From an uncultured Aureispira sp. (GTDB lineage: Bacteria; Bacteroidota; Bacteroidia; Chitinophagales; Saprospiraceae): 42,198 nucleotides of DNA. Location of the stretch: contig CAJQOX010000054.1 of the NCBI GenBank assembly GCA_905480075.1, positions 1 through 42,198 on the forward strand, written 5' to 3'. Below are positions 6,530 through 34,920 of this stretch, piece by piece. The notes under the pieces were generated by a model. The model saw only the letters and a list, made by a program, of their open reading frames with translations, ran no database searches and had not been told where the DNA came from. Made by a program: the position numbers and the translations under genes. Each line of letters starts with the position of its first letter. Within the stretch, counting starts at the first letter, position 1.

Positions 6530-6638
6530 GCGTCAGCGATGTGGAACAGTGCTACGCAGTAGCAGACCGCATCAACTGTTTTTACAGATGTGCGGGCCGA
6601 GCGAAAAGCGAGCTGTGAAACGTAGCGCCCGGACGCCC
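6530..6638 (+). repeat. GC-rich structured interspersed repeat, copy A
   Basis: About 109 bp beginning GCGTCAGCGATGTG and ending CGTAGCGCCCGGACGCCC, in an otherwise AT-rich sequence. By eye roughly 85-90% identical to 34810-34920. Hairpins: GCTAC-GCA-GTAGC at 6551-6563 and CAACTGT/ACAGATG (6573-6579 with 6584-6590, one mismatch). The second stem is perfect in the other copy, with a compensatory G-C to A-T change, which suggests that a folded form is conserved. GCTACG near the start can also pair with CGTAGC near the end. It contains no gene. Confidence 0.85.
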
Positions 6639-6648
6639 GGCTTTATAG

Positions 6649-6702
6649 TAGTAAGTAGTAAGTAGAAAGTCGTAAGTCGAAAATTTGCTTTGCAATTTTT
6701 AC
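6649..6702 (+). repeat. Heptamer array plus AAATTTGCTTTGCAA module, copy A
   Basis: Four 7-bp units, TAGTAAG, TAGTAAG, TAGAAAG and TCGTAAG, at 6649-6676, followed by AAAATTTGCTTTGCAA and TTTTTAC to 6702. The same module occurs on the minus strand at 35090-35141, where the heptamers all read TAGAAAG. Confidence 0.75.
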
Positions 6703-6748
6703 TTTTTGGGATCTTTACCCTGCTGCCATTTTAATGATTGAAGCAAAT

Positions 6749-9700
6749 TCATCTTCTTTGTCTGAGGGCCTGCAGCGACCACCACCCGAGAAAAGCGAGG
6801 AAGGCAATAGGGAGGATGAACCACCAAATATGGATAACCGGTTCGGAGATCTGAATGGCATCAGAATTTCCTATTTGAATAAAGGAGGCCCAAAAAGCGG
6901 GGTGTGCGTTGAGCCCTTCTGCCTTGTTGAGGAATTGAATTTTAGCCATTTGAAGCGCTTTGTCTTTAGGCATTCCTGCAATAACATTCTGATAAAAACA
7001 ATCAATCAGCAGCGGCTGATAAGTTTCTTTTTGGTTCCACAGTGTCATCAAAAGTGCGGGGCATCCTGCGTACATAAAAGACCTGCCGAAGGCGATAAGC
7101 CCCTCCCCTCTTTTAAGTTGCCCGTAATAAGAAGAGCAATTAGACAACGTTACAAGAGAAGCATTGAGATCAAGTTGTACTATTTCGTTTACTGTAAGAA
7201 AGTTATCTTCTTTTTGGTAGGCATCTTCTGCGAGGGCGATACAAGAAGCCCCGGGTTGAAACTGATTGACCAAAGCCTGCAAAGCAAGATGAAGCACATT
7301 ATACTCCCCGGCATAATCTTTAAGGTAATATTCTGTGGCATATTTATCATTATAGAAGTCCCCTTCATATTTTTGAGAAAGGAGATCAATTTCTTTGGCA
7401 GCATGAGTAGATTTCCTGAGATTATTCCTTAGATTAATAATAGATTCGTGGCGAAAATCAGCTTTCACCTGATCGGTATAAGTAGCCGACATACCTAAAA
7501 TTTTATTATTATCAAGAGGACCTTTTTTGCTGCAACTGAGGTAAAGAGAGGCAGAAAAATTATAAGAGATTATTTTTTGTTTAAGGAGAAAATCCAGGTT
7601 ATTGAAATTTATATTGTGAACCGAATCTACAGGTATATCTGTCAGCAGCGTTTCGAAAGGAATAAAAGACAATAATCCATCAGGAATAATGATGAGTCTG
7701 TTGCAATTATCATACAAATTGTGGTGCATCATTTTATAGAACAACTCATAGCTTGTTCTACAAAAATCCTTATAGCCTCCTGAATGCGTATGTTGAATTA
7801 ATTTGGGGTCTGTAAAATGTTTATAGTATTTGAGTACAGTAGGTTTATAGGTTCTCCAGAATATTTTTCGAACAGCGAAAGAATCTCTGCGAATAAGGAA
7901 CTGATACAAAGTATTGTTGCCTTCAAAATACTGAACAAGGGCAGTAGAATCGGGCAAAGCCATTTGAATGGAATCAACAGCAGGCAGGTTATCGGAAGAA
8001 ATAAAATGATAATATGCCGGGAATTCATTTTTAAATTTTAGTTTGCTGTCATTGAGTTGACCCTTTAAGGAGAGAAACTGTTCAGATAGCCAATCAATAT
8101 TGACAGAATCCTTAGAGCGCAATGCGTTGAGGCGATTTTTTTTAATCCAGACAATTCTGTTTTTAAGATTGGTGAAAGAATCGATGAGGTCTTGCGGCAC
8201 TTTTGCAAAGGAGTGATTGGCTGGATTAGTGACCGCCACATTACAGTGAAATTTTCTGGATAATTCAGAAAGATAAAAAGCTCTTTTCAAGTAAGATAAG
8301 TCTTTATATCTTTCGAACAAGAGGTAAGAGACATCAATACCCTGTTCAATAACAGAGATGCTGATTTTCAGGAAATCCCCGGAATTATCATTGATCAGAT
8401 TCAGCAAAGATTGATTATACCTGCAAAGCCTGTCGATATTGAGGAGCGACACATTGTATTTGGACTGATCATAGAGGCCGAACATAGCCCTAATACTAAG
8501 GCAGTTGATATCGACTAATTGCTTAACAGAGAAGACAGAATCGGGATGATGAAATCGGTCAGCTGAGACGATAGCAGCAGCCTCAGCAGCCTTATCAAGT
8601 ATTTTAAGGGCCTGTTTAAATTTCTTTATATCAAGCAAAAACTTCCCAAGTCTGCTGAGCGCATCAGCAGATTGAAGAGAGTGTGGGCCAAAAAACTGTT
8701 CGGTATCTGAAACAAATAATTTAAAAGCTGCTTCCGCCTGTTTAAAATTCTTTTTTGCCAGGTGCAGCGCGGCTTCAGTAAATTGAGGTTCAAAGAAATT
8801 CGGGGGGAATTTTTTAGCATATTTTTTATAGAGGTTGAGAAAAACCTGCGCACTATCAGACTGATTGACTTTGAGAAACTGTTTAGACATCAGGTTGGCT
8901 GCCCTGACAAATACAGGACTATTTTGGGGGCTTTGGGATGCGAAAATTTTTCTAAGGCAAAGAATAGTTTCGAGGGGTTTATTATCGCTATTATACAAGG
9001 CTTGAGCGAGTTGCAATCTAAAAGCAGGCAATTCTACATTTGACTGAGGGTTATTTTGCGGTAAAAAAGCGAGTGCACTTCTTGCTGACTTAACAGCGTC
9101 ATCAACATTAGATTGCAAAGAAAAAACATCAGAGAGATTAAGATAATTCAGGGCGAGGTTGAAAGAATCGGTAAGGGGAAGATTGCTCCGTTGATTAATA
9201 AGAGATTTTAGTGCAGCAGCAGCTTTAGCTTGCCTGCCTGATTTGCAAAAAACAGCAGCCTGAGTTGTAAAAAACAAAATAGAATCATTTTCATGAAGCG
9301 GTAATGATGCAGCATCATCCAGGTATTCAGTAGCTTTTTTAAGATTCAGATTTTCGTCGGCAAAAAACAAAGCGAGAGAGCAGTATGCAAATAACAAGGG
9401 TCTGTTATTTTGTTTGAACAATGCGAGAGAACGGAGGCAATTATCTGCTGAATCCGGGAGATTCTGCAGCAGTGCCGTTTTTGTCAATAGTGCCTGGTAC
9501 CATTGTGGAGAAAGCTGAAAATCATTCAACAAATACAATTTACGTGACAGCGGCACATCGGAACAATCAAGGATAAAGGTCATGGAATTGGCATTGGACC
9601 TGAGTATATCCGGATTATCAGAAGCATTGGGCAAGGAATTGAGTGATTTCTGATAAACAACAAGGCTATCGACAAGACGAAGTGTTTTGCAATAGTCAAT

Positions 9701-9811
9701 CCGGGAAAGCAGTTGATTCTTATCATTTGGATGCTGAAAGCTGCTAAAGAGCAGACAGAGAAGGCAAAAAGTCAGCAAAGAAAAAGAAAAGACAGAAACC
9801 CGGTGATTCAT
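6749..9811 (-). CDS. Exported TPR-CHAT protein with altered catalytic dyad
   Basis: A 1020-residue protein: signal peptide (residues 1-26), a long helical TPR-like region to about residue 600, a C-terminal CHAT domain (caspase-like, clan CD) at about 690-980, and a final membrane segment WWFILPIAFLAFLGWWSL near 994-1012 with a basic tail. CHAT hallmarks are SNC (C892 at the catalytic cysteine), GEGLIAFGRSFMYAG and LLMTLWNQ. The usual HLATHG motif here reads HLALQA (H841 to A846), so the expected catalytic histidine is Q845. This may be a pseudo-protease, or the dyad may be supplied differently. Signal peptide plus C-terminal anchor suggests a periplasm-facing domain. It stands alone, so no substrate or partner is evident. 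Confidence 0.88.
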   Translation of the reverse strand: MNHRVSVFSFSLLTFCLLCLLFSSFQHPNDKNQLLSRIDYCKTLRLVDSLVVYQKSLNSLPNASDNPDILRSNANSMTFILDCSDVPLSRKLYLLNDFQLSPQWYQALLTKTALLQNLPDSADNCLRSLALFKQNNRPLLFAYCSLALFFADENLNLKKATEYLDDAASLPLHENDSILFFTTQAAVFCKSGRQAKAAAALKSLINQRSNLPLTDSFNLALNYLNLSDVFSLQSNVDDAVKSARSALAFLPQNNPQSNVELPAFRLQLAQALYNSDNKPLETILCLRKIFASQSPQNSPVFVRAANLMSKQFLKVNQSDSAQVFLNLYKKYAKKFPPNFFEPQFTEAALHLAKKNFKQAEAAFKLFVSDTEQFFGPHSLQSADALSRLGKFLLDIKKFKQALKILDKAAEAAAIVSADRFHHPDSVFSVKQLVDINCLSIRAMFGLYDQSKYNVSLLNIDRLCRYNQSLLNLINDNSGDFLKISISVIEQGIDVSYLLFERYKDLSYLKRAFYLSELSRKFHCNVAVTNPANHSFAKVPQDLIDSFTNLKNRIVWIKKNRLNALRSKDSVNIDWLSEQFLSLKGQLNDSKLKFKNEFPAYYHFISSDNLPAVDSIQMALPDSTALVQYFEGNNTLYQFLIRRDSFAVRKIFWRTYKPTVLKYYKHFTDPKLIQHTHSGGYKDFCRTSYELFYKMMHHNLYDNCNRLIIIPDGLLSFIPFETLLTDIPVDSVHNINFNNLDFLLKQKIISYNFSASLYLSCSKKGPLDNNKILGMSATYTDQVKADFRHESIINLRNNLRKSTHAAKEIDLLSQKYEGDFYNDKYATEYYLKDYAGEYNVLHLALQALVNQFQPGASCIALAEDAYQKEDNFLTVNEIVQLDLNASLVTLSNCSSYYGQLKRGEGLIAFGRSFMYAGCPALLMTLWNQKETYQPLLIDCFYQNVIAGMPKDKALQMAKIQFLNKAEGLNAHPAFWASFIQIGNSDAIQISEPVIHIWWFILPIAFLAFLGWWSLQALRQRR

Positions 9812-10014
9812 AGAATAAAATTAAAAGGAGAATAATGTGAAATAAAAGTAAATATTAAGACACAAGATTATGTGTTTATTTATAAAAACAAAACCTTTGG
9901 GCTTCAAAAATAAAAAAAAGACTTCAGATTTATATTTAGTAATAATCTTTATCTTATATTTAGAGTGAGTTTGAGTATAAGAATAATAAATTAAACAAAC
10001 AGAAAAAAGAAAGT

Positions 10015-10440
10015 ATGGCAGACGAGACGGAAAACCAGGAAAACTCAACGAAAGAGGTAGTGGAAACAGATCGCAGCGGCAATAAATTTTCGGATTTCGT
10101 AAATAGGAATTCAAAACTATTAATGATCATCGGCGGGGTCACAGTATTGGCCATAATAATCTCTGTTCTTGTATATTATGCGATGTATTACCAATCGAAC
10201 CTGGACGAATATGCAGAGCAGTTCTGTACTTGTGCAGAGGAATCTGACAGCGAGTTTTACAATTACAGCAATGATGGTTTTGGATACCGCAGTGATATGA
10301 GCAGTTGCTTTGCAGAGGATTTCAAGGTTTACAGCGAGCAGTTCAACAAGATAGAGAAGCAGGAATTGCTGGTAAAGTTTCAGGAAAAAGTAATAGCAAG
10401 GTGTCCCCACAAACTAGCAAACATATTTGAGTACAAGTAG
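10015..10440 (+). CDS. Small single-pass membrane protein with four cysteines, unknown function
   Basis: Unrecognised, 141 residues. An acidic, polar N-terminus (about 1-34) is followed by a membrane segment LLMIIGGVTVLAIIISVLVYYAM (about 35-57) and a C-terminal domain of about 80 residues with four cysteines (FCTC, SSC and RC). After a cytoplasmic N-terminus this domain would lie outside the inner membrane, where the cysteines could form disulfides. It precedes ligA by 87 bp, but a hairpin lies between them, and the divergent neighbour is the TPR-CHAT gene. Coding is supported by the clear membrane segment and soluble domain; the ATG at 10015 has weak AAAGAAAG upstream. Confidence 0.75.
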   Translation: MADETENQENSTKEVVETDRSGNKFSDFVNRNSKLLMIIGGVTVLAIIISVLVYYAMYYQSNLDEYAEQFCTCAEESDSEFYNYSNDGFGYRSDMSSCFAEDFKVYSEQFNKIEKQELLVKFQEKVIARCPHKLANIFEYK

Positions 10441-10482
10441 TCAAAGAAACAGAATGCCAATAAATAAATTGAGCAGAATTCC

Positions 10483-10512
10483 CTCCTGAGTTTACCCTCA
10501 AAACTCAAGGAG
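10483..10512 (+). promoter_or_regulatory. Hairpin covering the AGGAG upstream of ligA
   Basis: CTCCTGAGTTT (10483-10493) pairs with AAACTCAAGGAG (10501-10512): 11 base pairs with one bulged A and a 7-base loop. The 3' arm contains AGGAG, the only Shine-Dalgarno-like stretch before the ligA ATG at 10528, though its 15-base spacing is long. It could control ligA translation or end the upstream transcript; no T run follows. Confidence 0.5.
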
Positions 10513-10527
10513 TAAATATAATTATGA

Positions 10528-12657
10528 ATGTACACATCAGAAAATCAAAAGTATTTATTTGAACTTTCGAAGCAATTAATAGAAAGGGGAAAGGCTGGAG
10601 ACGCATCAGATGCATCCGGTCTCGTTTCAGAATTAATAAAGGTAATTGAATACCACGAGTGGCGTTATTATGTACTTGATCAGCCTGTTTTGAGTGATTT
10701 TGAATATGACACCTTATTCAGGAACTTACAACTGCTGGAGCAGGAATATCCACATTTAACCAAAAAGGATTCGCCTACACAGCGGGTTTCCAACGATTTA
10801 ACGGAGAACTTTAAAACGGTAAGACATTTAACGCCGATGTTATCGCTGGATAATTCGTATAACGGGGAAGATCTGGGCGATTTTGACGAGCGGGTAAAAA
10901 AGCTTACCGAGACCGAGGACATGAGTATGGGGATAGAGTATTGTGTTGAGCCAAAATTTGATGGCGGCACGATTGTCCTGGTCTATGAGAATGATCAGTT
11001 GGTCCGTGCAGCGACACGAGGAAACGGAACGGATGGAGATGAGATTACGGCCAATGCCAAGGCAATTATGTCTATACCATTACGGGCAAATTTTTCGAAA
11101 TACGGCATACAGAAAGCCGAGTTGCGCGGGGAGGTATTGATACGGAAAGACTTATTTGATCAGATAAACGGGGAACGATCAAAAAACGGGAATCAATTAT
11201 TTGCGAATGCCCGGAATGCGGCCACCGGGGGATTAAGGTTGAAGGACCCCAAGCAGGTAAGAGAGCGGAAACTGGATGCTTTTATTTATCAGATGGGATA
11301 TGCTTCCAATGCATCGGGAGAAGATATGCTTGCACAATTCAGCACACATAATGAACAAATAGAATTGCTGTCGGGAGCAGGTTTTAAAGTCCCTAAGCTC
11401 AATGAAGAACGCGCCTTATGCAAAAATATAGAAGAAGTAGTACTACACTGCAACAAATGGCAATCTGCCCGGGAAGAATACCCTTTTGAGATAGACGGGA
11501 TGGTAGTAAAGGTTAACAATCTGGAGATGCAGGATTTATGTGGATACACAAGTCATCATCCCCGATGGGCAATAGCCTTCAAGTTCAAGGCAAAGCAGGC
11601 GACGACGAAATTACTATCGATAGACTATCAGGTTGGTCGGACAGGAGCGGTAACTCCCGTAGCGCGTTTAGAGCCTGTGGAACTTGCGGGTGCGACAATA
11701 TCGAACGTATCTTTACACAACGCAGATTTCATCAAGGAGAAAGACATCAGAGAAGGCGACACGGTACTTGTAGAACGTGCGGGGGACGTAATTCCTTATA
11801 TAGTAAAACCTATTACTGAATTGCGGGACGGCAGCGAGAAGGAGGTAATATACCCCACAAGTTGTCCTGTATGCAAGAGCGAATTAAACCGGCCTGAAGA
11901 AGAGGCTGTATGGCGATGCGTCAATTCGGGTTGTGAAGCACAGATAGTCGGGAGGCTGGTACATTTTGTATCTAAGAATGCAATGAACATAGATGGATTC
12001 GGCGAGGCCTATATCGAGCGGTTTTACAAGGAGGGGATGTTAAAGAGTCTGGCAGACATATACCGTTTAGACTATAACCGGATATCATTTTTTGAGGGTT
12101 TCGGCGAGCGGTCTTCCGAGAAGTTAAAATTGGCCATCGAACAATCGAAGACAAACCCTGCCTCGCGGTTATTGTATGCCTTAGGGATTCGTCATATTGG
12201 GCGGACAAATTCGAAGATTCTGATTTCGGAAGTAGAGAAGATACAGGATCTGGGGGAATGGAGTTCAGAACAGTTATGTGCCTTGGAAGACATAGGGCCT
12301 ATTGTTGCAAAACAGGTAGTTGACAATCTGGGAAAAGCGGAAACCATTGAATTGCTAAATGAACTGGAAAGCTTAGGAGTTAATTGCCGGCGGTTGGAAT
12401 CGGAGAAGAAGCAGGAGATATCAGCAGATGCAGTATTAGCCGGAAAAACTGTAGTATTTACCGGCACCTTAGTACAAATGAAACGGAGTGAGGCAAAGCA
12501 AATGGTAATAAATGCCGGAGGAAAATCTGTCGGTTCAGTGAGTTCGAAGTTGAATTATCTTGTAGCCGGAGAGAAAGCGGGATCGAAATTAAAGAAAGCA
12601 AGGGATTTGGGAATAACAATATTGACAGAGGAAGAATTTCTGGAATTGATAAAATAA
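10528..12657 (+). CDS. ligA: NAD-dependent DNA ligase
   Basis: Seals nicks in duplex DNA using NAD+ during replication and repair. Seen: domain Ia (HEWRYYVLDQPVLSDFEYD, residues 43-61), adenylation site EPKFDGG with the nucleotide-accepting K143, further nucleotidyl-transferase motifs (TRGNGTDGDEIT, ELRGEVLI, EIDGMVVKVN, AIAFKFKA), OB fold (DYQVGRTGAVTPVARLEPV), a four-cysteine zinc finger at C446, C449, C464 and C469, helix-hairpin-helix repeats, and a C-terminal BRCT domain from about 630 (GKTVVFTGTL). Length 709 is slightly above the usual 670. The adenylation motif has F in place of the commoner M, I or L (KFDG), which is conservative. The next gene starts within 40 bp. Confidence 0.98.
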   Translation: MYTSENQKYLFELSKQLIERGKAGDASDASGLVSELIKVIEYHEWRYYVLDQPVLSDFEYDTLFRNLQLLEQEYPHLTKKDSPTQRVSNDLTENFKTVRHLTPMLSLDNSYNGEDLGDFDERVKKLTETEDMSMGIEYCVEPKFDGGTIVLVYENDQLVRAATRGNGTDGDEITANAKAIMSIPLRANFSKYGIQKAELRGEVLIRKDLFDQINGERSKNGNQLFANARNAATGGLRLKDPKQVRERKLDAFIYQMGYASNASGEDMLAQFSTHNEQIELLSGAGFKVPKLNEERALCKNIEEVVLHCNKWQSAREEYPFEIDGMVVKVNNLEMQDLCGYTSHHPRWAIAFKFKAKQATTKLLSIDYQVGRTGAVTPVARLEPVELAGATISNVSLHNADFIKEKDIREGDTVLVERAGDVIPYIVKPITELRDGSEKEVIYPTSCPVCKSELNRPEEEAVWRCVNSGCEAQIVGRLVHFVSKNAMNIDGFGEAYIERFYKEGMLKSLADIYRLDYNRISFFEGFGERSSEKLKLAIEQSKTNPASRLLYALGIRHIGRTNSKILISEVEKIQDLGEWSSEQLCALEDIGPIVAKQVVDNLGKAETIELLNELESLGVNCRRLESEKKQEISADAVLAGKTVVFTGTLVQMKRSEAKQMVINAGGKSVGSVSSKLNYLVAGEKAGSKLKKARDLGITILTEEEFLELIK

Positions 12658-12693
12658 AAACTAAGAACATTGGAAATTGACACAAAGACAAAG

Positions 12694-13122
12694 ATGAAAA
12701 TACTGGAATCCGAGCGACAATTAATAAATGATGCCATACAGAGTATCGGGATTGACCCTTTGGCGACAAAACAAAAAGAAACTGACGCCTGGAAGTTACA
12801 TCGCGGATCCGTACAGATCATCATAATTGCACAAAAGACAAAGCAGGAGAACGGAGATCAGAAATCGATAATTTGTATGATGGCGCCTATAGTAAATATA
12901 TCCGATGAATTCACACAGAAAGAGGCCTTATTTGAATATATTTTGCAGACGAATCATAAGCTTGACTGTGAAGCTTTTAGTCTGTCCAACAATTGGTTGA
13001 TAATGAGCTCGAGTTATTTTCTGGAGGACATGCGATTGCAAGAGGTAGTCCGTATGTTGGAAAGCATGAGTTTTCAGTCACAGAAATTTGTTAAAATATT
13101 GGCAGATACCTTTGAATTCTAA
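12694..13122 (+). CDS. YbjN / CesT-like small protein
   Basis: About 142 residues, cytoplasmic, no signal peptide. The C-terminal half (FEYILQTNHKLDCEAFSLSNNWLIMSSS... and LEDMRLQEVVRMLESM) resembles the alpha/beta fold of YbjN proteins and type III secretion chaperones (CesT), in which one sheet is flanked by helices. This assignment is by pattern only. The frame is open from a TTG at 12670, but the first ATG is at 12694 (MKILESERQ), which I choose; neither has a clear ribosome-binding site. It lies just after ligA on the same strand, probably in the same transcript. The role is unknown; YbjN relatives in other bacteria are linked to stress or assembly functions. Confidence 0.6.
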   Translation: MKILESERQLINDAIQSIGIDPLATKQKETDAWKLHRGSVQIIIIAQKTKQENGDQKSIICMMAPIVNISDEFTQKEALFEYILQTNHKLDCEAFSLSNNWLIMSSSYFLEDMRLQEVVRMLESMSFQSQKFVKILADTFEF

Positions 13123-13162
13123 TTAATAAGAATAATTATTAAATTAATACTTACCCTTATAA

Positions 13163-14875
13163 ATGCAAGGTAAAGAAAAAGAACTGAATGAAAATATTTT
13201 CGTTATTTTGTTGTTAATTACAACAATAATATCCGGAGTATTCTTTTTATTTTTTTTATTTTTTATCCAACCGAATACATTTCTGTTGATCAATGTATTA
13301 ATCAGTTTTTTTTTATTCGGAGGCATGTATTTGTTTGCAAAACGGGGGATCGGATTAAAAATTTCGCTTGTTTTTTACACCATTTTTTCTCTGATATTAT
13401 TTACAGGATCCTGGATTTTCACAGGCGGTATTGTTAGTGGCATTGGATATTATATCGTAGTAGCTACAGGTATATTGGTAATAATATTCCCCAAAAAATA
13501 CAGGTTGTATATCATCCTGCTCATGACAATATTTCCAATAATATTATTTTCAATAGAATTCTCAAACCCCGAGCTGATCAGGAATTTCTTGCCTACAGAA
13601 TCAAAAACCATTTTGTTATTTATCAATTTAATTTCATCGATAGGCTTGGCAGGATGGCTATTGTCAAAAACCAAGAATGAATACAATAAAGAAAAAAAAC
13701 ATTCTGCAAAAAAGCGATCTGATTTAATAAAAGCGAATGAAAAGAAGACAAGATTTATAAGAAACATCAGTCATGAAATCCGGACACCTCTAAACGGATT
13801 GATCGGAATGGCAAGTTTACTTGAAAACACCAATATAACGGAAGAACAAAAAGAGTATCTGGAAATAATAAAATCAAGTAGTCTGCAATTGTTAAACATA
13901 ACCAATGGAATAATAGACTATTCAAATACGGGATCAAAAAACGAAAAAATAATACATAAGGGTTTTTCATTAAAGGGATGTGTAAAAAACGCCATTGATA
14001 TAACAAAACCTTCTGCCCAAAAAAAGGGATTAAAGCTATATTACAAAATCAGTGAAAAAATAACGAATGAATTAAAGGGGGATGCAGGAAAGCTACAGCA
14101 GGTGTTGATAAATCTGACGGGCAATGCGATAAAATTCACATCATATGGGGAAGTAAGTATAGAAATAAATGAAATTGAAAAAGATTCTAAAAAAATCAAG
14201 CTTGAATTTAAAATCAGAGATACAGGAAAAGGGATAGAAGAAAGTGAAATGGAAACCTTATTTTCTGCCTATTCTCAGCTTAGGAGTAATGCAAGTGAAA
14301 ACTACAAGGGCAGTGGGTTGGGTCTGAGTATTTCCAAGGAATTGGTAGAAAACATGGGAGGAAAATTGAAAGTTATAAGTAAAGATGGTGAAGGAAGTAT
14401 ATTTTATTTTGATCTGGATTTTGAAATCACAGAAGAAACAGGACAAAATTCACCTTCAAAAACAGAAAATAAAATTAATCCAAGCTTAGCACAAAATTAT
14501 CCATTAAAAATATTGCTCGTAGAGGATGACAGAACAAATCAGACCCTTGTTGTCCGGTTGTTAAAAAAGATGGGATATGACTGTCAAACTGCAAACAATG
14601 GGCTGAAAGCATTGGAAGCATTAAAAAACAATAACTTTGATTTAATATTTATGGACATACAGATGCCTCTTATGGATGGGATTGAGACAACAAAAAGAAT
14701 CCGTCAGGATCTATCTGAACAACCCATAATAATTGCTATGACAGCAAATGCTTTAGATGAAGACCGTAAACAATGTAAAGAAGCAGGAATGAATGATTTC
14801 TTGTCAAAGCCAATCGCTGTAAATAAATTAGAGACAGCAATAATAAAGTGTTATCAACTGATCAAAACACTTTAA
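13163..14875 (+). CDS. Membrane hybrid histidine kinase with receiver domain
   Basis: Two-component sensor kinase, 570 residues. About six membrane helices occupy residues 12-168, with no recognisable extracytoplasmic sensor domain; a charged linker of about 30 residues follows. HisKA carries ISHEIRTPLNG with the phospho-acceptor H204; the ATPase domain has the N box (LINLTGNAIKF, 315-325), G1 (DTGKGI, 353-358) and G2 (GSGLGLSI, 383-390). The C-terminal receiver (about 448-565) has acidic ED at 454-456, phospho-acceptor D498 (FMDIQMPLMDG), T527 region and K549. No DNA-binding output domain. It is followed after 12 bp by a paralogous kinase without receiver, so the two probably form one unit. 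Confidence 0.94.
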   Translation: MQGKEKELNENIFVILLLITTIISGVFFLFFLFFIQPNTFLLINVLISFFLFGGMYLFAKRGIGLKISLVFYTIFSLILFTGSWIFTGGIVSGIGYYIVVATGILVIIFPKKYRLYIILLMTIFPIILFSIEFSNPELIRNFLPTESKTILLFINLISSIGLAGWLLSKTKNEYNKEKKHSAKKRSDLIKANEKKTRFIRNISHEIRTPLNGLIGMASLLENTNITEEQKEYLEIIKSSSLQLLNITNGIIDYSNTGSKNEKIIHKGFSLKGCVKNAIDITKPSAQKKGLKLYYKISEKITNELKGDAGKLQQVLINLTGNAIKFTSYGEVSIEINEIEKDSKKIKLEFKIRDTGKGIEESEMETLFSAYSQLRSNASENYKGSGLGLSISKELVENMGGKLKVISKDGEGSIFYFDLDFEITEETGQNSPSKTENKINPSLAQNYPLKILLVEDDRTNQTLVVRLLKKMGYDCQTANNGLKALEALKNNNFDLIFMDIQMPLMDGIETTKRIRQDLSEQPIIIAMTANALDEDRKQCKEAGMNDFLSKPIAVNKLETAIIKCYQLIKTL

Positions 14876-14887
14876 AACAGAAAATAA

Positions 14888-16201
14888 ATGTCATTGGATT
14901 CTAAGGATAATAAAATACAAGATTACAGGGACCGGTTTTTAATTCTAACATTAAAGACGGCCATTTTATTATCTTTTTTCTATTTGGTACTGCAGATATT
15001 TTTTTTAAGTTCTGACATTGCAATCATCTTCACCTCATTAAGCTCCTTACTTGTTTATGTTTTTTTATACTACAAAACTACAAAAAAAGGAGAGTTAAAA
15101 TCTACAAGGAACCTTTTCATAATCATTGGTTTAACATTCTTATCAGCGGTGTGGATATTTAACGGTGGAATGAAAGGAGGCATTGGATATTTTTTTTTAA
15201 TCTCAATATGTTTTACAATAATATTAGTCCCACCGGAGGAGGAAAAAAAATACATAATCATAACCATTATACTGGTTACAATATTATTTATTACGGAGCA
15301 GATATTTGAGGGTATTAGTATAGGGAAAGAAGACTTGAGTTTAAAATTAAATTTATTATTTAATATTATTTTTTCCACTTCAATAGTTGGTCTGACGAAA
15401 TTCCTAACAATAAATGCATATGAGAAGGAAAGGGAGTTCTCACTCCTTCAGAATACTGAATTATCCGATACTAACAATACAAAATCAAGATTTACAGCAA
15501 ATATCAGTCATGAATTAAGGACCCCGTTAAACGGAATTATCGGCATGGCTGATTTACTAAATGAAAGTAGTCCAGACGAAGAACAGACAGAATACATTAA
15601 AGCCATAAACAGCAGCAGTAAAAAACTACTGAAAATAATAACACAAACACTAGAATTCACTCAGGCAGAATCTGGATCAAGTATTTTAAACAAAACCATT
15701 TTTTCTGTAAAGGATTGCATTGAGGAAGCAATAAAAACGATAGAATCAGAAACAGAAATTAAAGGCAGAAGAATAATATTAAATAGTGCGCCTTTGTCAG
15801 TGAGAATAGTTGAAGATGAATATAAATTAAAAAAAATACTGCTAAATCTAATTGATAACTCCCTTAAGTTTTCTGATAAAGAAGATATAATAATAGAAAT
15901 AAAAGAAAGGAAAAGCACAGAAAAGGAAATTATACTCGAATTCAGTGTATCAGATAAAGGAAAAGGAATTCCAGCAGAAAAAATATCAGAATTATTTGAA
16001 CCGTTTACAAGGTTGGATGATACTAGAACAAGTTTACACAGCGGGACCGGTTTGGGTCTATCTATATGCCAATATTACGTACATTTGATGGGTGGGGAAA
16101 TATCAGTAAAGAGTTCTCCCGGGGAAGGGTCAACCTTTACATTTACAATAAGATCCGAGAAGGAGAATAGTAAATCCGAAGACAAAAAAATAGGTACATA
16201 A
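14888..16201 (+). CDS. Membrane histidine kinase, paralogue of the preceding gene, without receiver
   Basis: A 437-residue sensor kinase. The membrane region (about 17-172, six helices) shares with the upstream kinase the unusual stretch around WIFNGGMKGGIGYF (WIFTGGIVSGIGYY there), showing that the two arose by duplication. HisKA has ISHELRTPLNG with H208; ATPase motifs are LLNLIDNSLKFS, SDKGKGIP and GTGLGLSI. It lacks the receiver domain found in its neighbour, and no response regulator gene lies nearby, so it may feed the neighbour's receiver or a distant regulator. The signal is unknown. Start ATG 14888 lies 12 bp after the previous stop. Confidence 0.93.
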   Translation: MSLDSKDNKIQDYRDRFLILTLKTAILLSFFYLVLQIFFLSSDIAIIFTSLSSLLVYVFLYYKTTKKGELKSTRNLFIIIGLTFLSAVWIFNGGMKGGIGYFFLISICFTIILVPPEEEKKYIIITIILVTILFITEQIFEGISIGKEDLSLKLNLLFNIIFSTSIVGLTKFLTINAYEKEREFSLLQNTELSDTNNTKSRFTANISHELRTPLNGIIGMADLLNESSPDEEQTEYIKAINSSSKKLLKIITQTLEFTQAESGSSILNKTIFSVKDCIEEAIKTIESETEIKGRRIILNSAPLSVRIVEDEYKLKKILLNLIDNSLKFSDKEDIIIEIKERKSTEKEIILEFSVSDKGKGIPAEKISELFEPFTRLDDTRTSLHSGTGLGLSICQYYVHLMGGEISVKSSPGEGSTFTFTIRSEKENSKSEDKKIGT

Positions 16202-16226
16202 AAATAATAATTGGAAAAACTATATG

Positions 16227-16372: not shown

Positions 16373-16399
16373 CACAAAGAACAATAAAAACAAAAAGGA

Positions 16400-25459: not shown

Positions 25460-25518
25460 CCGATTTCCGACTGTAAGGAGGAATGAATGTCCTGTGGACA
25501 GGCATAAAAAATACTAAA

Positions 25519-26274: not shown

Positions 26275-26447
26275 TATTTTCAATTAATTTTTGTAAAAAC
26301 AAAATCTGTTTGAATTTCAATAAAGGCTAAATTAATCTTTTTTATGGTAAAAAACGTATAATCCCTTTTTTCATCTAACTTTAGAAATAATAAGTAAAAG
26401 AACCGATTTTTAGATTCTTTGATTGTAGATTAATAAAAAGATTTATA

Positions 26448-27842: not shown

Positions 27843-27909
27843 AATGTATTCAGAACCAATGGTCTTAATGAATGATTATTTATAATTTTCGAATTATCTG
27901 ATTAAATAG

Positions 27910-28683: not shown

Positions 28684-28702
28684 AGATCTGTAAAATGAAC
28701 TA

Positions 28703-31126
28703 TTATCCATACAAACTACTTTTAGGATTGCCTTTCAGGTTCCACCTGTAATATCCATAATCATTTCTCTTTCTTGTCAAAGATTCATGTATATAATTGA
28801 TTTCATTATCCTGCAGGTCAAATTTTTCTATGTATATCTTTGAAAGGAATCCCGGTAGTTCCGTGATTTTATTTTTTTTGAGATTTATTTCTCTGAAGTT
28901 TCCGTTTTTAACAGATTCAGGAATCAGAATAATTTCATTATTTGCGGCAGAAAGTCTGTTGACAGAAGTGCAGTTAAAAATACTGTCATGCAATTTGGTC
29001 AGTTTGTTCCTCGACAGATCAAGTTCCCTCAATTGCATAAGTTGTTCCTGCATGATTTTAAAGTCAGGAAGATTATTATTGGATAATTTCAGTATCTGTA
29101 ATTTTCTGAATTTATTTTTATTGATCTTCCTGCAGTTGAAGGATTCTATGCTGTTGGAATTTAGTTTGAGTTCTTTCAGAGCGGAGATATCAAAAAGTTT
29201 GTAATTTATTTCCCGGATCTGATTGCCCGAAAGGTCTAATTCCCTTAGCTTTTTTGAACATAATTCATCGGGAATGTCTTTTATTTTATTTTGCTTCAGA
29301 ATTAATACCCTCAGGTCGGGAAGTAGCAATACCTGCTCCGGTATTTTTGTTAATGCCGACCTTCCGAGATTGAGAATCTGAAGATCCTTCATTTCATTCA
29401 GAAAATCAAAATTATTCAGTTTACAACCTTCCAGGTTTAAGAAATTCAACTTTTTAAGGGATTTCAGACCGTCGGAATTTGAAATAGAACAGCTGGAAAG
29501 GTCAAGGTATTTCAGGTCCTTCAGCAAAGCAATTTCATCACTGACCGCTACTTTGGATCCCGACAAATCGAGTGATGTCAGGTTTTCCATTTTCCCAAGC
29601 GATCTGAAAGATTCCGCAGTTTGAATACCAGGGACTTTTTGGAGAATGATCTTTTTGACCTGACTAAAGTGTTTGATCATAGAAGGTATAGCTCCATTAA
29701 ATTTGGCCGCTTTCATATTTAAAGTACCTGTTCTGACGTCTCTGATTCTTGGATTTTCACCAGCAATCAGGGCATGAAGGATCCTGAAGGGCATTTCTTC
29801 AATTCCGAAATCATGCTTAAATAATTTATTCAATTTTGTATCGCTGTTGCTCGACATTCTAAGATAAACACCACTTTTTTTGATATAGTCATAGCTGCTT
29901 GCCGGGCCTATTTTTTTGAAGAGCTTTTCCGCCACTTTCGCCACCTCTTTATCGGGGTGGGCCATCATCAGAACGGCCACCATACTTATAATATCCCTTG
30001 TTGCCCCCGTTCCGTCAATTATCTGTAGTGCCAACAAAATATTCTCAACCTGATTGCTGACAATAAGATGATAGATCTGAAGGACCGAATCCTCATTGCC
30101 CTGTTGTCTGAGCCATGGATCTTCCAAATTGGTCAGTAGCTCTTTGAGATGATCTTCGGTAGCCAATACTTGCTGCTCCCTGAAAGCAGAAGCCAAGATA
30201 TGCAGGTCCGTTTTAGAGTTAATGACAAAAACATCCTCCTTATCCAGGTCCTTATTGACCTTCATTTTTGACAGGGGCAAATAGTTTTTTATTTTGTCTG
30301 TCAGTACCTTTGCCGGTCTTTTGGAAAAACAGAGTTGATAATCATGCTCCTCATCCATAGAAAAAGGATTATCTATCAGATCGGTCAAAAGGTCCGTTCT
30401 GTTCAAAAACAGGGCAAATAGAATCTTTTTAGCATCGGGGCCGGCATCAAAATTCAATTCCTGAAATTCCGTCAGGCTTTTATTTTTTTCAAATCTATGC
30501 GCTATTCTTACAGCATCCAACAAAGCGATAGACAGAGAATATTTATCAATTCCCGGGGAGTAATACTCTAAGTTTTTGAGGTGGCTAAGTAAAGATATTT
30601 TATCGCCTATTATAGAAAAATCCAGTTTAAAACTGAATGTTACCTTCTTCAAAGATATAGATTTCCCCAAACCCTCGACTATCTCCGAATGCGAACATTT
30701 TTTACCAATTTTTCCATCAATATCTATTTCCTTAAGTTTAGGAAGTTCAGCAATTTGCTGCGGCCATTTTTTTCCGTAAAAATTTCTTATTCTCAAATAC
30801 TTCAGGACTTTCAGCTCTTTCAAATCCTCTTTAAATCTAAGTTGTGAGCAGTCAAGTACCAGGCTTTTCAGGTCTGTAGACTGAGTGACAAAGTCGGGTA
30901 AAGTTTTACATTTATTATTCGACAGAAAAACTGTATCACTGACCCTGACCTTATTTAAAGCAGGAGGAAAAGTAAGGAGCTTGGGCGCAAAAATATACAG
31001 CTCTTTCACCTGATCAACTGCTTTGAAAAAAGAGTCATTCAATTCCTCTAATTCCCCGTTAAGGTCCTGTATTCTTATATAATCAGGACCGATGTCTATT
31101 ATTTTTGGATTCTTGTATTTTTGCAT
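28703..31126 (-). CDS. Leucine-rich-repeat protein with central helical region
   Basis: An 807-residue protein without signal peptide or membrane segment, so probably cytoplasmic. A short set of leucine-rich units lies at about 30-165 (LKSLVLDCSQLRF, LKYLRIRNF, LKEIDIDG), then a helical, HEAT-like stretch at about 200-460 (MAHPDKEVAKVAEKLFKKI), then roughly 12 repeats at about 490-790 following LxxLxLSxNxI (LRELDLSGNQI, LRELDLSRNKL). LRR arrays bind proteins; nothing shows the partner. Similar proteins in Bacteroidota often have WGR/HEAT-like repeats, which I cannot verify here. It is transcribed leftward, 108 bp after the LOG-family gene and beyond that gene's terminator. Confidence 0.82.
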   Translation of the reverse strand: MQKYKNPKIIDIGPDYIRIQDLNGELEELNDSFFKAVDQVKELYIFAPKLLTFPPALNKVRVSDTVFLSNNKCKTLPDFVTQSTDLKSLVLDCSQLRFKEDLKELKVLKYLRIRNFYGKKWPQQIAELPKLKEIDIDGKIGKKCSHSEIVEGLGKSISLKKVTFSFKLDFSIIGDKISLLSHLKNLEYYSPGIDKYSLSIALLDAVRIAHRFEKNKSLTEFQELNFDAGPDAKKILFALFLNRTDLLTDLIDNPFSMDEEHDYQLCFSKRPAKVLTDKIKNYLPLSKMKVNKDLDKEDVFVINSKTDLHILASAFREQQVLATEDHLKELLTNLEDPWLRQQGNEDSVLQIYHLIVSNQVENILLALQIIDGTGATRDIISMVAVLMMAHPDKEVAKVAEKLFKKIGPASSYDYIKKSGVYLRMSSNSDTKLNKLFKHDFGIEEMPFRILHALIAGENPRIRDVRTGTLNMKAAKFNGAIPSMIKHFSQVKKIILQKVPGIQTAESFRSLGKMENLTSLDLSGSKVAVSDEIALLKDLKYLDLSSCSISNSDGLKSLKKLNFLNLEGCKLNNFDFLNEMKDLQILNLGRSALTKIPEQVLLLPDLRVLILKQNKIKDIPDELCSKKLRELDLSGNQIREINYKLFDISALKELKLNSNSIESFNCRKINKNKFRKLQILKLSNNNLPDFKIMQEQLMQLRELDLSRNKLTKLHDSIFNCTSVNRLSAANNEIILIPESVKNGNFREINLKKNKITELPGFLSKIYIEKFDLQDNEINYIHESLTRKRNDYGYYRWNLKGNPKSSLYG

Positions 31127-31175
31127 TTAAGATGTACAGAAGTAATTTTGAAATCAGGTATAAAGCTGACAGGTC

Positions 31176-31209
31176 AAAAAAAAACCATCCCTAATATTAT
31201 CAGGGATGG
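31176..31209 (-). terminator. Rho-independent terminator of the LOG-family gene
   Basis: On the minus strand, CCATCCCT and AGGGATGG form a perfect 8-bp stem (31209-31202 and 31192-31185) with a 9-base loop, followed by nine T (31184-31176). It starts 26 bp after the LOG stop codon and separates that gene from the LRR gene. Confidence 0.9.
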
Positions 31210-31234
31210 AGTATAAAGATATAAATTTAATATT

Positions 31235-31972
31235 TTAATAGGGCAGATTCGGCTTAAGTAACTCTTTGCCATCGTAAAAGTCATTGATAATTTTGACTAC
31301 TTCATCGGTAGAATCTGTTACAGGAATCAAGTCAATATCTTTGGGGCTGATTGTACCATATTTTTCTGCCAAAGAATTTTTCACCCAATCCAACATACCT
31401 GCCCAAAACTCTGTTCCCATTAAAATAACAGGTATTTTAGCAATTTTTTTTGTTTGAATAAGCGTCAACACTTCAAACAATTCATCCATAGTACCAAAAC
31501 CACCGGGCAGTACAACAAAGGCCTGAGCGTATTTGACAAACATCACCTTACGGATAAAGAAATAATTGAAGTTAAACACTTTGTCGGCATCGATATAAGG
31601 ATTATACCCCTGTTCAAACGGCAGGTCAATATTCAGACCAACAGAAACACCTCCGCTTTCTTTAGCCCCTCTGTTAGCAGCCTCCATGATACCCGGGCCA
31701 CCCCCTGTGATGATACCGTAGCCTTCTCTTACAAGGGCAGCAGCGACATCTACTGCCAGTTTATAATGCGGATTATCCTCCTTGGTACGAGCAGATCCAA
31801 AGATAGACACACAAGGGTCTATCTGATTCATTCTTTCATATCCATCCACAAATTCGGCAATAACCTTAAACACCGTCCATGAATTGGAAGCTTTCATCGC
31901 CTTCATTTCGTTCCATTCCTTCACTGATTTTCTTCCTGGCTTTTTATTATTACCATTAGTGGAATCTTTCAT
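31235..31972 (-). CDS. LOG-family Rossmann protein (nucleotide 5'-monophosphate phosphoribohydrolase, TIGR00730 type)
   Basis: A 245-residue cytoplasmic enzyme of the LOG/YvdD lysine-decarboxylase-like family, whose members release free base from cytokinin or other nucleoside 5'-monophosphates. Seen: SIFGSAR at 56-62, the phosphate loop TGGGPGIMEAANRGA at 89-103, the conserved RK in FFIRKVMF (141-142), and the signature PGGFGTMDE at 156-164. The N-terminal 30 residues are charged and longer than in the shortest members. The name 'lysine decarboxylase' used for old family entries is misleading. A terminator follows; it is transcribed separately from the LRR gene. Confidence 0.95.
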   Translation of the reverse strand: MKDSTNGNNKKPGRKSVKEWNEMKAMKASNSWTVFKVIAEFVDGYERMNQIDPCVSIFGSARTKEDNPHYKLAVDVAAALVREGYGIITGGGPGIMEAANRGAKESGGVSVGLNIDLPFEQGYNPYIDADKVFNFNYFFIRKVMFVKYAQAFVVLPGGFGTMDELFEVLTLIQTKKIAKIPVILMGTEFWAGMLDWVKNSLAEKYGTISPKDIDLIPVTDSTDEVVKIINDFYDGKELLKPNLPY

Positions 31973-32097
31973 ATTTTTTATAGTTTAATTAAACAATATA
32001 TTTTCTAACAATAAATGAGAAGGGAAAGATATTAAAAAAGAATTAAAAAAAGATTAAAATTTGTTAAAAGCGACATTTTGAAAGACAAAGACCAAAA

Positions 32098-33429
32098 TCA
32101 ACCAAGACCAAAAACCCCCTGAAGATGCGGATTCATAAAACGTCTTTCGGGGTCCATTTTTTCTCTGAGTTCTAAAAAATCATTCCATTTTTCATAATTC
32201 TGAGAAAGATAATCCGCTTTTCGGGTATGCATTTTACCCCAATGCGGTCTGCCTCCGAAGGAACAGAACATGTTCTCGATCTCTTCGAAATAGGGGTTGT
32301 GATCGGATTTTGAGTAAACATGTACCGCAATGTAGGCAGAATCCCTTGCATAGGCAGGACTCAACCAAATATCATCCCCTTTAACAAATCGACATTCCAC
32401 GGGAAAAAAGATATAGTATTCATTCTCTTCGATCATAGACTTCAGTTTACAGATACACTCTTCAAAATGTTCCAGGGGAATGTTGTATTCCATTTCCTTG
32501 AAGCGGACATTCCTTACAGTAGCGTAGATCTGATGGCTGTAGTTTATTTTGGTTTCTTTGGTGAAGTTATTGGCCATAAACCTATTGACCTTTTTAAAGG
32601 TAGAAGGAAAAGCAGAAGCGATATTACAAATAGTTTGCATGGCAAAATTTTCGATGACCACATCATTGACATAACCCAGCACCTTATTGTATTTTACAGC
32701 TTTATCAGTTTTATTCGACTTTTTGAGTTGTACAGTATCTGCATAAGGGAAGTAATAGAATTCAAAATTTCTGTTATTGCTGTTGTAATTCTTCAGTTCA
32801 GAGAGGGTTTCAGTAAAATCGGCAGCGGAGGAAATATATTCTAATTTGTAGGCCTTATCCACCTTGAAGGTAATCTGAGTTATTATTCCCAGCGCACCGA
32901 GGGCGACCCTCCCTGCTTCAAATATCTGAGAATTTTCATTTTTTGAACAAGTCAGAATTTCACCCTCCGCCGTAATAATAGTAAAGTCAACAATTTCGGT
33001 ACTGACGTTTCCAAAACCAATACCCGTACCATGCGTTCCAGTAGCAGTGGCACCTGCAACCGATTGTACATCAATATCCCCCAGGTTTATCATGGCAAGG
33101 TCGTGTTTGAAGAGGGCTTCATTGGCATTTTTAATAGAAGTCCCCGCTTTGACGGTAGCGGTCATCTTATCCTTATCTACACTAACCAATCCATTAAAAG
33201 CCCTTAGAGAGACAATAAAAGAATTGGTTTCCATCAGTCTGGAAAAGGAATGCCCATTTCCAGCCACTCTTATTTTCTTATCTTCTTTTTTAGCTTTGAG
33301 GACGATTTCCACAATTTGTTGTTCGGTATGCGGGTAAAAGATATGATCCGCAAGGCATTCTACATTTCCGGTCCAGTTTGACCATTTCTGACCTTTTGTG
33401 GCCATATTTTTGATAAGTGCATCAATCAT
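32098..33429 (-). CDS. FAD-linked sugar-lactone oxidase (D-arabinono/L-gulono-1,4-lactone oxidase family)
   Basis: A 443-residue flavoenzyme. The N-terminal FAD-binding domain (PCMH type) reads RVAGNGHSFSRL with H60, the residue that in lactone oxidases carries covalent FAD, and VQSVAGATATGTHGTG; the C-terminal ALO domain has GGRPHWGKMHTRKADYL, the HWGK substrate motif. Such enzymes oxidise aldonolactones or alditols with oxygen, forming hydrogen peroxide. No signal peptide, so cytoplasmic. It lies in a run of leftward metabolic genes, 158 bp downstream of the old-yellow-enzyme homologue. The substrate is not determined by sequence. Confidence 0.9.
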   Translation of the reverse strand: MIDALIKNMATKGQKWSNWTGNVECLADHIFYPHTEQQIVEIVLKAKKEDKKIRVAGNGHSFSRLMETNSFIVSLRAFNGLVSVDKDKMTATVKAGTSIKNANEALFKHDLAMINLGDIDVQSVAGATATGTHGTGIGFGNVSTEIVDFTIITAEGEILTCSKNENSQIFEAGRVALGALGIITQITFKVDKAYKLEYISSAADFTETLSELKNYNSNNRNFEFYYFPYADTVQLKKSNKTDKAVKYNKVLGYVNDVVIENFAMQTICNIASAFPSTFKKVNRFMANNFTKETKINYSHQIYATVRNVRFKEMEYNIPLEHFEECICKLKSMIEENEYYIFFPVECRFVKGDDIWLSPAYARDSAYIAVHVYSKSDHNPYFEEIENMFCSFGGRPHWGKMHTRKADYLSQNYEKWNDFLELREKMDPERRFMNPHLQGVFGLG

Positions 33430-33587
33430 AAAACAACAATTTTACCAATTAGAAAGGCTAAAAAAAAACAATCGCCAATTATACTGCAAAAATCAGGAAC
33501 AGACAAGAAACAGGCAGGATAAAAACTGCTTTTACAAATTTTAGGTTAATATCAGATTAAAGAGCAGACAGAAGCATTGGTGGAGAA

Positions 33588-34664
33588 TCATTCGAGAACA
33601 AAATCCGGCCAACGCCGCATATATTCAATAAATTTACCACTAAGGCCTTCCTTCGTTAAATAATCAATGGAAACGGGGAGATCTACCGATTGGAAGTCCG
33701 GATTCATTTGAACCTTCAATGGGAAGTCATGATGTAAAATTGCCCCCTTGCCAATACAGACAAAATCGACTCCGGCCTGCATGATTTCATTTGCCCCGGC
33801 CCCTGAATGTATTCCTCCTGCAACTGTTAAGGGGACCTTTCCTAAATCGAGACTGGTAAAATGTTGCAAGAGGCTAGAGTGCTGATGTACTTTTTCTTCC
33901 GGCATTTTGAAAGAGTCCCAGAGCGAGATATCCAGAAAATCGACAGAAGTATCTTTCGCCAGGCTCAAACATAATGTTTTTATTTCTGTCAGGAGCATAC
34001 CAAAGCGTTCAGGCGACAATCTTAGGCCAATTATAAAAGATGGGCCACAAGCCATTCTGATGCCATCTATAATTTCAACAATTATCCTGGCCCTGTTTTG
34101 CAGGGAACCACCATATTTATCTATTCTGACATTATATTTGGGGCTTAAGAACTGAGCAAGGATATAACCATGCGCACCGTGAACTTCCACACCATCATAC
34201 CCGCATTTTTTTGCTCTGAGGGCGGCGGCGATAAAATGATCTCTCAGTTCCCTAACTTCTGTTTCAGACAAAGCCCGGGATCCTGATTCTTCATGGTCTG
34301 ACGGAGCGACCGGTGCACTGTTTATGAGATTTTTGGGCGACCGGATTCCTGCATGATGCAATTGAACCAAAGCGAGACTTCCTTCCGATTTTATGGCATC
34401 AGCCAACCTGCTATGACCGGGAATTTGTTTATCGCTGAAAATCCCCAATTGCCCTGGAAAGCCTTTACCATTGGCCATAACATGAGCTGCGCAGGTCATT
34501 GTCATTCCAAAGCCCCCTTTGGCACGCATAGTCAGCCACCTGAATTCTTCGTCAGACAGGGTTCCGTCCTCATGACTTTGGGTATTGGTCATAGGGGCCA
34601 GTTTAAAGCGATTTTTCATCAATGCACCACAAGGAAAAGTAATCGGATCGAAAAGAGTATTCAT
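33588..34664 (-). CDS. Old yellow enzyme family NADH:flavin oxidoreductase
   Basis: A 358-residue FMN TIM-barrel. Seen: N-terminal FDPITFPCGALMKNRFKLAPMTN, the active-site DGVEVHGAHGYILAQFLSPKYNVRIDKYGGSLQNRARI with the HxAH pair and the conserved YGGS-NR block, and the C-terminal FMN-phosphate region VDFVCIGKGAI. It reduces activated C=C bonds (enones, nitro compounds) with NAD(P)H. The family often pairs with a 4Fe-4S domain; none is present here, so it is of the short OYE type. The 487-bp repeat-bearing region lies upstream, so it probably has its own promoter. Confidence 0.92.
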   Translation of the reverse strand: MNTLFDPITFPCGALMKNRFKLAPMTNTQSHEDGTLSDEEFRWLTMRAKGGFGMTMTCAAHVMANGKGFPGQLGIFSDKQIPGHSRLADAIKSEGSLALVQLHHAGIRSPKNLINSAPVAPSDHEESGSRALSETEVRELRDHFIAAALRAKKCGYDGVEVHGAHGYILAQFLSPKYNVRIDKYGGSLQNRARIIVEIIDGIRMACGPSFIIGLRLSPERFGMLLTEIKTLCLSLAKDTSVDFLDISLWDSFKMPEEKVHQHSSLLQHFTSLDLGKVPLTVAGGIHSGAGANEIMQAGVDFVCIGKGAILHHDFPLKVQMNPDFQSVDLPVSIDYLTKEGLSGKFIEYMRRWPDFVLE

Positions 34665-34809
34665 AAGAGATAGAAATTTAAAACCAAAGTAAAAAAATTA
34701 TTCCTCCTTTTAAAAATAAAGTATTAAAAGAATAAAAAAATCATTTTTATATGACAATCGAATCATCCAATCCATCCAAATCATTTAATCCTTTTTCACC
34801 GAAACATCT

Positions 34810-34920
34810 GCGTCAGCGATGTGCAGTAGTGCTACGCAGTAGCAGACCGTATCAGCTATTTTTTCATAGCTGCTGCGGGCCGAGCGTGAGCGAGCTGCGA
34901 AACGTAGCGCCCGGACGCCC
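34810..34920 (+). repeat. GC-rich structured interspersed repeat, copy B
   Basis: Same orientation and ends as copy A at 6530-6638. Hairpins: GCTAC-GCA-GTAGC at 34831-34843, and CAGCTAT (34853-34859) with ATAGCTG (34866-34872), seven pairs with no mismatch. Differences from copy A fall mostly in loops or as paired changes. There is no gene in it. Confidence 0.85.

Follow-up and report, generated by a model that had tools for sequence, protein, structure and literature searches.

The DNA stretch analysed here (the window) comprises all 42,198 nucleotides (nt) of contig CAJQOX010000054.1 of assembly GCA_905480075.1, from an uncultured Aureispira sp. of the family Saprospiraceae, order Chitinophagales, and it carries two copies, A and B, of a GC-rich structured intergenic repeat. 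Our analysis suggests that this repeat probably belongs to an unnamed family of non-autonomous, strand-specifically folded interspersed repeats, similar in lifestyle to BOX and bacterial interspersed mosaic elements (BIMEs) and found almost only in the family of the host. The copies share a common fold, are dispersed between genes without orientation bias, number from one to at least 150 per genome and occupy stable positions, and in some units the interior has been replaced.

The two copies were first pointed out in an earlier note, which described two GC-rich stretches of the same orientation in gene-free DNA. Both lie where it placed them. In a DNA search copy A matches copy B with 87% identity over 34809-34920 (127 bits, E 3.6e-30), and the identical 22 nt at the 3' end that the note reported are seen in the alignment. 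Copy A is flanked by long open reading frames (ORFs) at 5551-6348 (+) and 6749-9811 (-), and copy B by ORFs at 33588-34664 (-) and 35152-36360 (-). The GC content is 57.9% in copy A and 59.6% in copy B, compared to 34.3% and 30.3% in what remains of the respective gaps and 38.1% in the window as a whole. Elsewhere in the genome the repeat is common, with 53 covariance-model matches, two of which are the window copies, and 44 DNA-search matches, several of which are halves of one copy. A 14-base motif from the 5' part occurs 56 times at up to two mismatches, compared to 5 times for the reversed control. The repeat is therefore neither limited to two copies nor short of further covariation, and the idea of a defined, structured, repeated unit is strongly supported by the DNA matches, an alignment of 37 copies and the covariance model.

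The common fold of these 37 copies consists of a closing stem (P1a, P1b and P1c), whose internal loops are conserved and G.A-rich, and of three hairpins, P2 to P4, that meet at a junction (Table 1); P4 has tandem G.A contacts. The alignment, A2, contains 37 of the 41 copies from the Aureispira genome then at hand, oriented and aligned; three copies with a long insert in P2 and one partial copy were left out. The closing stem and hairpins were taken from RNAalifold, P3 was extended by hand and the pairs were counted. Standard pairs make up 97.1% of the 1236 cells (35 pairs). Changes on both sides are found at 24 of the 35 pairs (shuffled mean 8.7) and in 94 cells (19.8 in shuffles), and none of 500 shuffles reached any of five measures, with the qualification that the structure was derived from the same sequences and that the shuffles ignore the kinship of the copies. 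When the partner is slid by one to three columns, pairing falls to 19-46%. Since folding z-scores of single copies are only modest (-1.1 to -2.6, both strands), the case for the fold rests on covariation. Even the outermost stem, P1a, pairs in 97.3% of cells, with both-sided changes in four of its five pairs.

Copies A and B themselves differ at five pairs. Four of these are standard in both copies (A-T to G-C, C-G to T-G twice, and G-C to A-T) and the fifth is A/A in copy A and G-C in copy B, which bears out the two changes noted previously in P3. Of the counted positions 33 of 34 are paired in copy A and 34 of 35 in copy B, which has a T/C mismatch of its own. The proposed inverted pairing of GCTACG with CGTAGC, by contrast, is not conserved: GCTAC pairs locally with GTAGC in P2, and CGTAGC is part of the closing stem, where its partner is GCGATG.

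Table 1. Positions of the two repeat copies and their structural parts in the window
Feature	Positions	Strand	Remarks
Repeat copy A	6530..6638	+	core GCGTC...GACGC 6530-6636, then CC; covariance-model match 6530-6636, 102.3 bits
Copy A P1a, 5' arm GCGTC	6530..6534	+	partner 6632-6636 GACGC
Copy A P1b GCGATGT, internal loop G-n-A, P1c ACAG	6536..6549	+	partner 6613-6626
Copy A hairpin P2 GCTAC-GCA-GTAGC	6551..6563	+	
Copy A hairpin P3	6567..6595	+	sequence variable, paired
Copy A hairpin P4 CGAGC-GAAAA-GCGAG	6598..6612	+	tandem G.A contacts, GNRNA pentaloop
Copy A 3' arms of P1c, P1b, P1a	6613..6636	+	CTGT-GAA-ACGTAGCGCCCG-GACGC
Repeat copy B	34810..34920	+	core 34810-34918, then CC; covariance-model match 34810-34918, 110.7 bits
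Copy B 5' arms of P1a, P1b, P1c	34810..34829	+	
Copy B hairpin P2 GCTAC-GCA-GTAGC	34831..34843	+	
Copy B hairpin P3	34847..34878	+	
Copy B hairpin P4	34881..34894	+	GTGA (GNRA) tetraloop
Copy B 3' arms of P1c, P1b, P1a	34895..34918	+	
C-rich, G-poor 5' flank of copy A	6470..6529	+	ATCC/AATC/ATCA words

The fold is also recovered between genera. In a cross-genus alignment, A5, of 37 of the 42 representatives considered, 93.3% of 584 cells pair (17 pairs), and both-sided changes are found at 12 of the 17 pairs (7.8 in shuffles) and in 104 cells (31.3 in shuffles). All four P1c pairs are formed throughout (148 of 148 cells). Rows that do not pair number 11 of 37 at pair 10/103, and 6 and 10 at the inner pairs of P3. 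By eye, the outer stem of other genera is a different one, for example GCATC/GATGC or GGCCT/AGGCC, and many have an extra hairpin, P5, before the last P1 arm, which in some copies is long and perfect. Across the family the unit is about 75-190 nt long.

The two strands of the repeat appear not to be equivalent. Among the named pairs of A2, G-U occurs in 77 cells and A-C in 1 (21 and 1 when the two pairs with frequent G-U are set aside), and among those of A5 in 37 and 5. P1c of 255 Saprospira copies from four chromosomes, in which orthologues are counted repeatedly, has 21 G-U and 2 A-C, with all four pairs forming in 222 copies. Six non-standard contacts in A2 are nearly invariant, with G.A or A.G in all rows counted (36 or 37) except for one of 37 at 89/101; the two contacts looked at in A5 are G.A in 32 and A.G in 33 of 37 rows. 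As these would read C.T on the complement, the contacts, together with the excess of G-U over A-C, make the strands unequal. All 16 pentaloops of P4 in A2 are GNRNA, and of the 18 tetraloops 10 are GNRA; the corresponding figures for A5 are 28 of 30 and 3 of 4. In each alignment three of 37 rows fall outside the pattern. On balance, the comparison of sequences suggests that the folded form is the + strand as a single strand, either RNA or single-stranded DNA (ssDNA), and not a symmetric cruciform, a conclusion that is supported but not proven.

The distribution of the repeat is narrow. A first covariance model matched 7 of 60 genomes of relatives, the Aureispira genome included. With the cross-genus model, matches were found in 54 of 398 Saprospiraceae genomes, representing 29 of 112 genera. 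Across the host order 25 of 396 genomes matched, three of which are outside the family and have single, weaker matches. These scans scored 10 candidates per genome and the copy-count scans at most 150, so copy numbers are lower bounds. A pattern scan of a species collection gave at least 118 stretches. Among those listed, 116 are from Saprospira, Phaeodactylibacter luteus or metagenome-assembled genomes (MAGs) of Saprospiraceae, judging from record titles; of the remaining two, a 'Chitinophagales' MAG has a model match and a Planctomycetaceae MAG does not (33 of the 118 stretches were searched with the model). Exactly one match is present in 10 of the 16 genomes of the copy-count set, 81 in genome G017, and at least 150 each in Saprospira grandis Lewin, S. 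grandis DSM 2844, P. luteus and genome G021. In Lewin we counted 130 copies in 400 kb (2.0-2.4 Mb, L205-L224; E up to 0.01), which by extrapolation would correspond to roughly 1,400 copies per chromosome, or about one per 3 kb. The Saprospira unit also matched three plasmid records, all from Saprospira (NZ_CP110855.1, NC_016936.1 and NZ_CP116809.1; 53-55 kb) and at 35 places, with no annotated feature under the best match of each, and copy B matched one of the three. A viral or phage origin was rejected, as the motif pattern had no match in a collection of viral contigs and copy B matched no phage record. We found no description of the repeat in published literature on Saprospira and Saprospiraceae repeats, genomes and structured RNAs, although one may exist elsewhere; the 2023 genome announcement of S. 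grandis WH does not mention repeats.

The positions of the copies are stable. We compared the Lewin copies with those of three further Saprospira chromosomes across some 120 kb, masking the elements and using the flanks as anchors; 98-99 of the 130 copies were without anchors, most of the 400 kb being outside the compared stretch. In the same orientation, 30 of 31 anchored sites are kept in WH (G290; 96.8% anchor identity, one site absent), 30 of 32 in DSM 2844 (G061; 93.8%, two absent) and 30 of 32 in G247 (85.8%, one in opposite orientation and one absent). At some of the shared sites the flanks are kept and the interior is wholly different. The quartiles of interior identity between Lewin and WH are 0.77, 0.98 and 0.99, and P3 differs at 13 of 30 sites from WH and at 27 of 30 from G247 (raw counts, small changes included). 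Of 61 changed P3 modules, 18 have an identical counterpart at another place in the part of the same genome that was sampled. Exchange between resident copies is the simplest reading of this pattern, although not the only one. A second Saprospira repeat, gcgacaacaaggactttagtccgcagttcgacgac and its variants, is seen beside or inside some elements: after the element at L106 and L115, and at the site corresponding to Lewin 109621 in G247 and DSM 2844.

We propose that the repeat is mobile but non-autonomous, and that a factor acting in trans would recognise its + strand in single-stranded form, as RNA or ssDNA. New copies would be rare today, and resident copies may exchange hairpin modules through conversion among themselves. 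A unit that no longer folds would drop out, and this could explain why compensatory changes keep coming.

A number of observations weigh against this proposal. There is no clean insertion or empty site among the absences examined, and no target duplication could be read; at Lewin 213664, a possible insertion, the element is present in Lewin only but the surrounding gap also differs, and the other absence stems from a deletion bounded by short direct repeats. Exchange is in the minority, with interior identity below 0.85 at 2 of 15 sites (WH) and 4 of 14 sites (DSM 2844) with both flanks at 85% or more. No candidate for a mobilising enzyme was found among the two families sought: Y1_Tnp is absent from the element-bearing genomes G021 (at least 150 copies), G002 and G007, and RVT_1, searched for in the Aureispira genome (92% complete) and in no other, has no match there. 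In A5, 19 of 500 shuffles reached the measure 'further pair types', and without the G-U-rich pair G-U exceeds A-C only by 11 to 5. Saprospira P3, folded by energy, shows no + strand excess on its own, the + strand having 16 G-U among 2100 pairs and the - strand 174 among 2033, and the Saprospira P4 loop is mostly not of the GNRNA type (88 of 255), AGACCT being commoner (121 of 255). Finally, in one genus (g57) single copies are conserved far above the surrounding DNA, which suggests, from the sequences compared, a host function there and not pure parasitism. This genus has one copy at the same orthologous place in each of four genomes, with surroundings about 79-81% identical over kilobases. 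The element can be aligned and its P1c pairs change together; as it is kept while the gap around it is barely alignable, some host use is suggested at least in g57.

The g57 copies also favour another explanation, that the repeat is a host-functional structured RNA, either a cis element of untranslated regions or a small RNA, which became multi-copy by chance. The g57 copy lies on the sense strand between what we take, from translations read without a family search, to be a PorP/SprF-like and an OmpA/TPR-type gene, and the G-U excess in the Aureispira genome, the G.A contacts and the GNRA/GNRNA loops are RNA-like. In this respect the suggestion of an expressed RNA in the earlier note may hold, because the fold looks RNA-like and specific to one strand, but it is not borne out by the orientation of the copies. 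In Lewin, 118 of the 130 copies are intergenic by gene prediction, 11 overlap a predicted gene (close to or at an end of it, or in a 53-aa prediction) and one is at an edge. These figures are from codon-scored genes, an initial ORF-based count having been dropped because 39 of the 130 copies overlapped dubious ORFs. Copies in tandem gaps are sense in 27 cases and antisense in 32, and 37 copies are in convergent and 22 in divergent gaps. In the Aureispira genome, where 31 of the 53 matches were placed with a crude ORF caller, both neighbours were seen for 27 copies, of which 11 are convergent, 6 sense, 5 antisense and 5 divergent. With sense and antisense so evenly matched in both genomes, orientation is not tied to transcription. 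At 18 low-copy loci inspected by eye the nearest upstream ORF is sense in nine, antisense in eight and unseen in one; the neighbours differ, with no conserved neighbour gene noticed. Inspection of the flanks by eye, without a promoter scan, revealed no recurrent promoter. Three of the seven g57 genomes searched have no match, and the range in copy number is unlike that of a dedicated RNA gene. We regard a host RNA as a fairly unlikely explanation.

The copies are not biased towards one replication strand either, with 64 on the + and 66 on the - strand in the 400 kb stretch of Lewin. The best 76 listed matches of the whole chromosome are 44 + and 32 - (by quarters 10/6, 14/13, 15/3 and 5/10), counts that we leave without interpretation because they include only the best-scoring listed matches and the origin was not located.

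Mobilisation by a Y1 tyrosine transposase (RAYT), as in repetitive extragenic palindromic (REP) sequences and BIMEs, is a very unlikely explanation. The copies are intergenic, dispersed and hairpin-forming, they have CGTC near the 5' end in the Aureispira genome, and all 15 close pairs in Lewin (less than 400 nt apart) are inverted with their 5' ends facing. REPs of the CGTC type have been reported in Bacteroidetes, and REPs are described as 20-40 bp long with an unpaired GTAG or CGTC tag (PMC3733652). Here, however, the unit is about 110 nt with several helices, and its CGTC is part of P1a, where it pairs with GACG, covaries and is not kept in other genera. Y1_Tnp is present in 303 of 398 Saprospiraceae genomes. 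The single Y1_Tnp gene found in the Aureispira genome is close to the end of a contig, and the 2.1 kb around it match the element no better than by chance; together with the element-bearing genomes that are devoid of Y1_Tnp, this led us to reject a RAYT link. Of the 'REP/MITE-like' element first suggested (MITE, miniature inverted-repeat transposable element), the dispersal and position fit, but the repeat is of no described REP family, and among the absences examined neither a clean insertion nor a target duplication, as expected of a MITE, was seen. The well-paired P1a arms may correspond to the terminal inverted repeats of a MITE, but they are only 5 bp and covary, and other genera end differently. 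No transposase is linked to the repeat, Y1_Tnp being the only one sought.

A DNA-level cruciform or protein site (a terminator, nucleoid or uptake site) selected on both strands is the least probable explanation: positions kept over considerable divergence, the lack of a + strand G-U excess in Saprospira P3 and the placement of 37 of 118 intergenic Lewin copies between convergent genes, compared to 33 of 151 gaps of at least 150 nt (no formal test), are in its favour, but orientation is random and the strands are unequal both in G-U over A-C (Aureispira genome and Saprospira P1c) and in the G.A contacts.

Other candidates were rejected as well. Rfam 15 has no match in the window and no family matches at gathering score; three snoRNA matches beside copies are far below it (E up to 10). 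A retron was rejected on the lack of RVT_1 in the Aureispira genome. An autonomous version, in which the unit is split by a gene, was sought by eye among the lone motifs in the 400 kb of Lewin, and the 35 scattered motifs include no obvious gene-flanking pair.

Several features of the copies and their surroundings may be added. Copies L021, L025 and L027, at different sites of the Aureispira genome, all carry in P2 the same insert, about 50 nt long and with a hairpin of its own, and a variant form has therefore multiplied; three further covariance-model matches are also long. The C-rich 5' flank of copy A recurs upstream of other copies in the same genome (5.1 ATCC/AATC/ATCA words per 60 nt upstream and 0.5 downstream of 31 copies), and it may be part of the unit in this genome. 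On the 3' side of each window copy there are 7-base tandem repeats (AGTAAGT-like and complement; 6647-6677 and 35113-35143), with six matches at up to three mismatches compared to 0.07 expected, and similar tracts are found 3' of a number of other copies in the genome. The ORF 6749-9811 (-), which adjoins copy A, encodes a CHAT-domain protein with TPR repeats. In G002, locus L075 has at about 12300-15800 open frames of one repeated peptide on both strands, resembling a translated CRISPR array.

Most small interspersed repeats in bacteria are short hairpins, and it has long been debated where they come from and what they are used for. The repeat described here has an intricate fold with strong covariation, and it is present in closed genomes of culturable Saprospira and in single-copy relatives. 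Stable positions, interior exchange and culturable hosts make it possible to test what mobilises such repeats and whether they act as parasites, as RNAs or as both. With about one copy per 3 kb in Saprospira, the repeat also bears on annotation and assembly. Tentatively, and with more doubt than for the family itself, we speculate that these may be a new class of RNA-like mobile repeat, whose self-contained branched fold has a fixed G.A-rich core and which, active in single-stranded form (RNA or ssDNA), colonised a bacterial family, reached more than 1,000 copies in Saprospira, swaps whole hairpins at fixed sites and in some lineages is retained as one functional copy.

Retron non-coding RNAs and integron attC sites resemble the repeat in that closing inverted repeats surround variable hairpins and the folding of one of the strands is important. 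Retrons are found next to a reverse transcriptase, and attC sites are in arrays beside an integrase, whereas the present repeats are dispersed. Enterobacterial repetitive intergenic consensus (ERIC) sequences are of roughly the same length, intergenic and structured, but they are imperfect palindromes of another host group, and the distinction is made here by description and not by comparison of sequences. ERIC repeats of enterobacteria are named in PMC2267715 and PMC3049150. The GTAG and CGTC super-families of REPs and BIMEs are likewise intergenic, hairpin-forming, of high copy number and found in inverted close pairs; they differ in their small size and unpaired tag from the branched 75-190 nt unit with no RAYT link seen here (PMC3733652). 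The repeat is closest in kind to BOX, being dispersed, intergenic and multi-copy, with a common fold and no gene of its own. The BOX elements of Streptococcus pneumoniae are small interspersed repeats with an extensive common fold and a modular interior, are over-represented between convergent genes and insert slowly today (PMC3049150). They belong to another genus and have another fold, and in them the number of boxB modules varies, whereas here hairpins of the same position are swapped and the repeat spans a bacterial family, one chromosome having about 1,400 copies by extrapolation (PMC3049150 for BOX).

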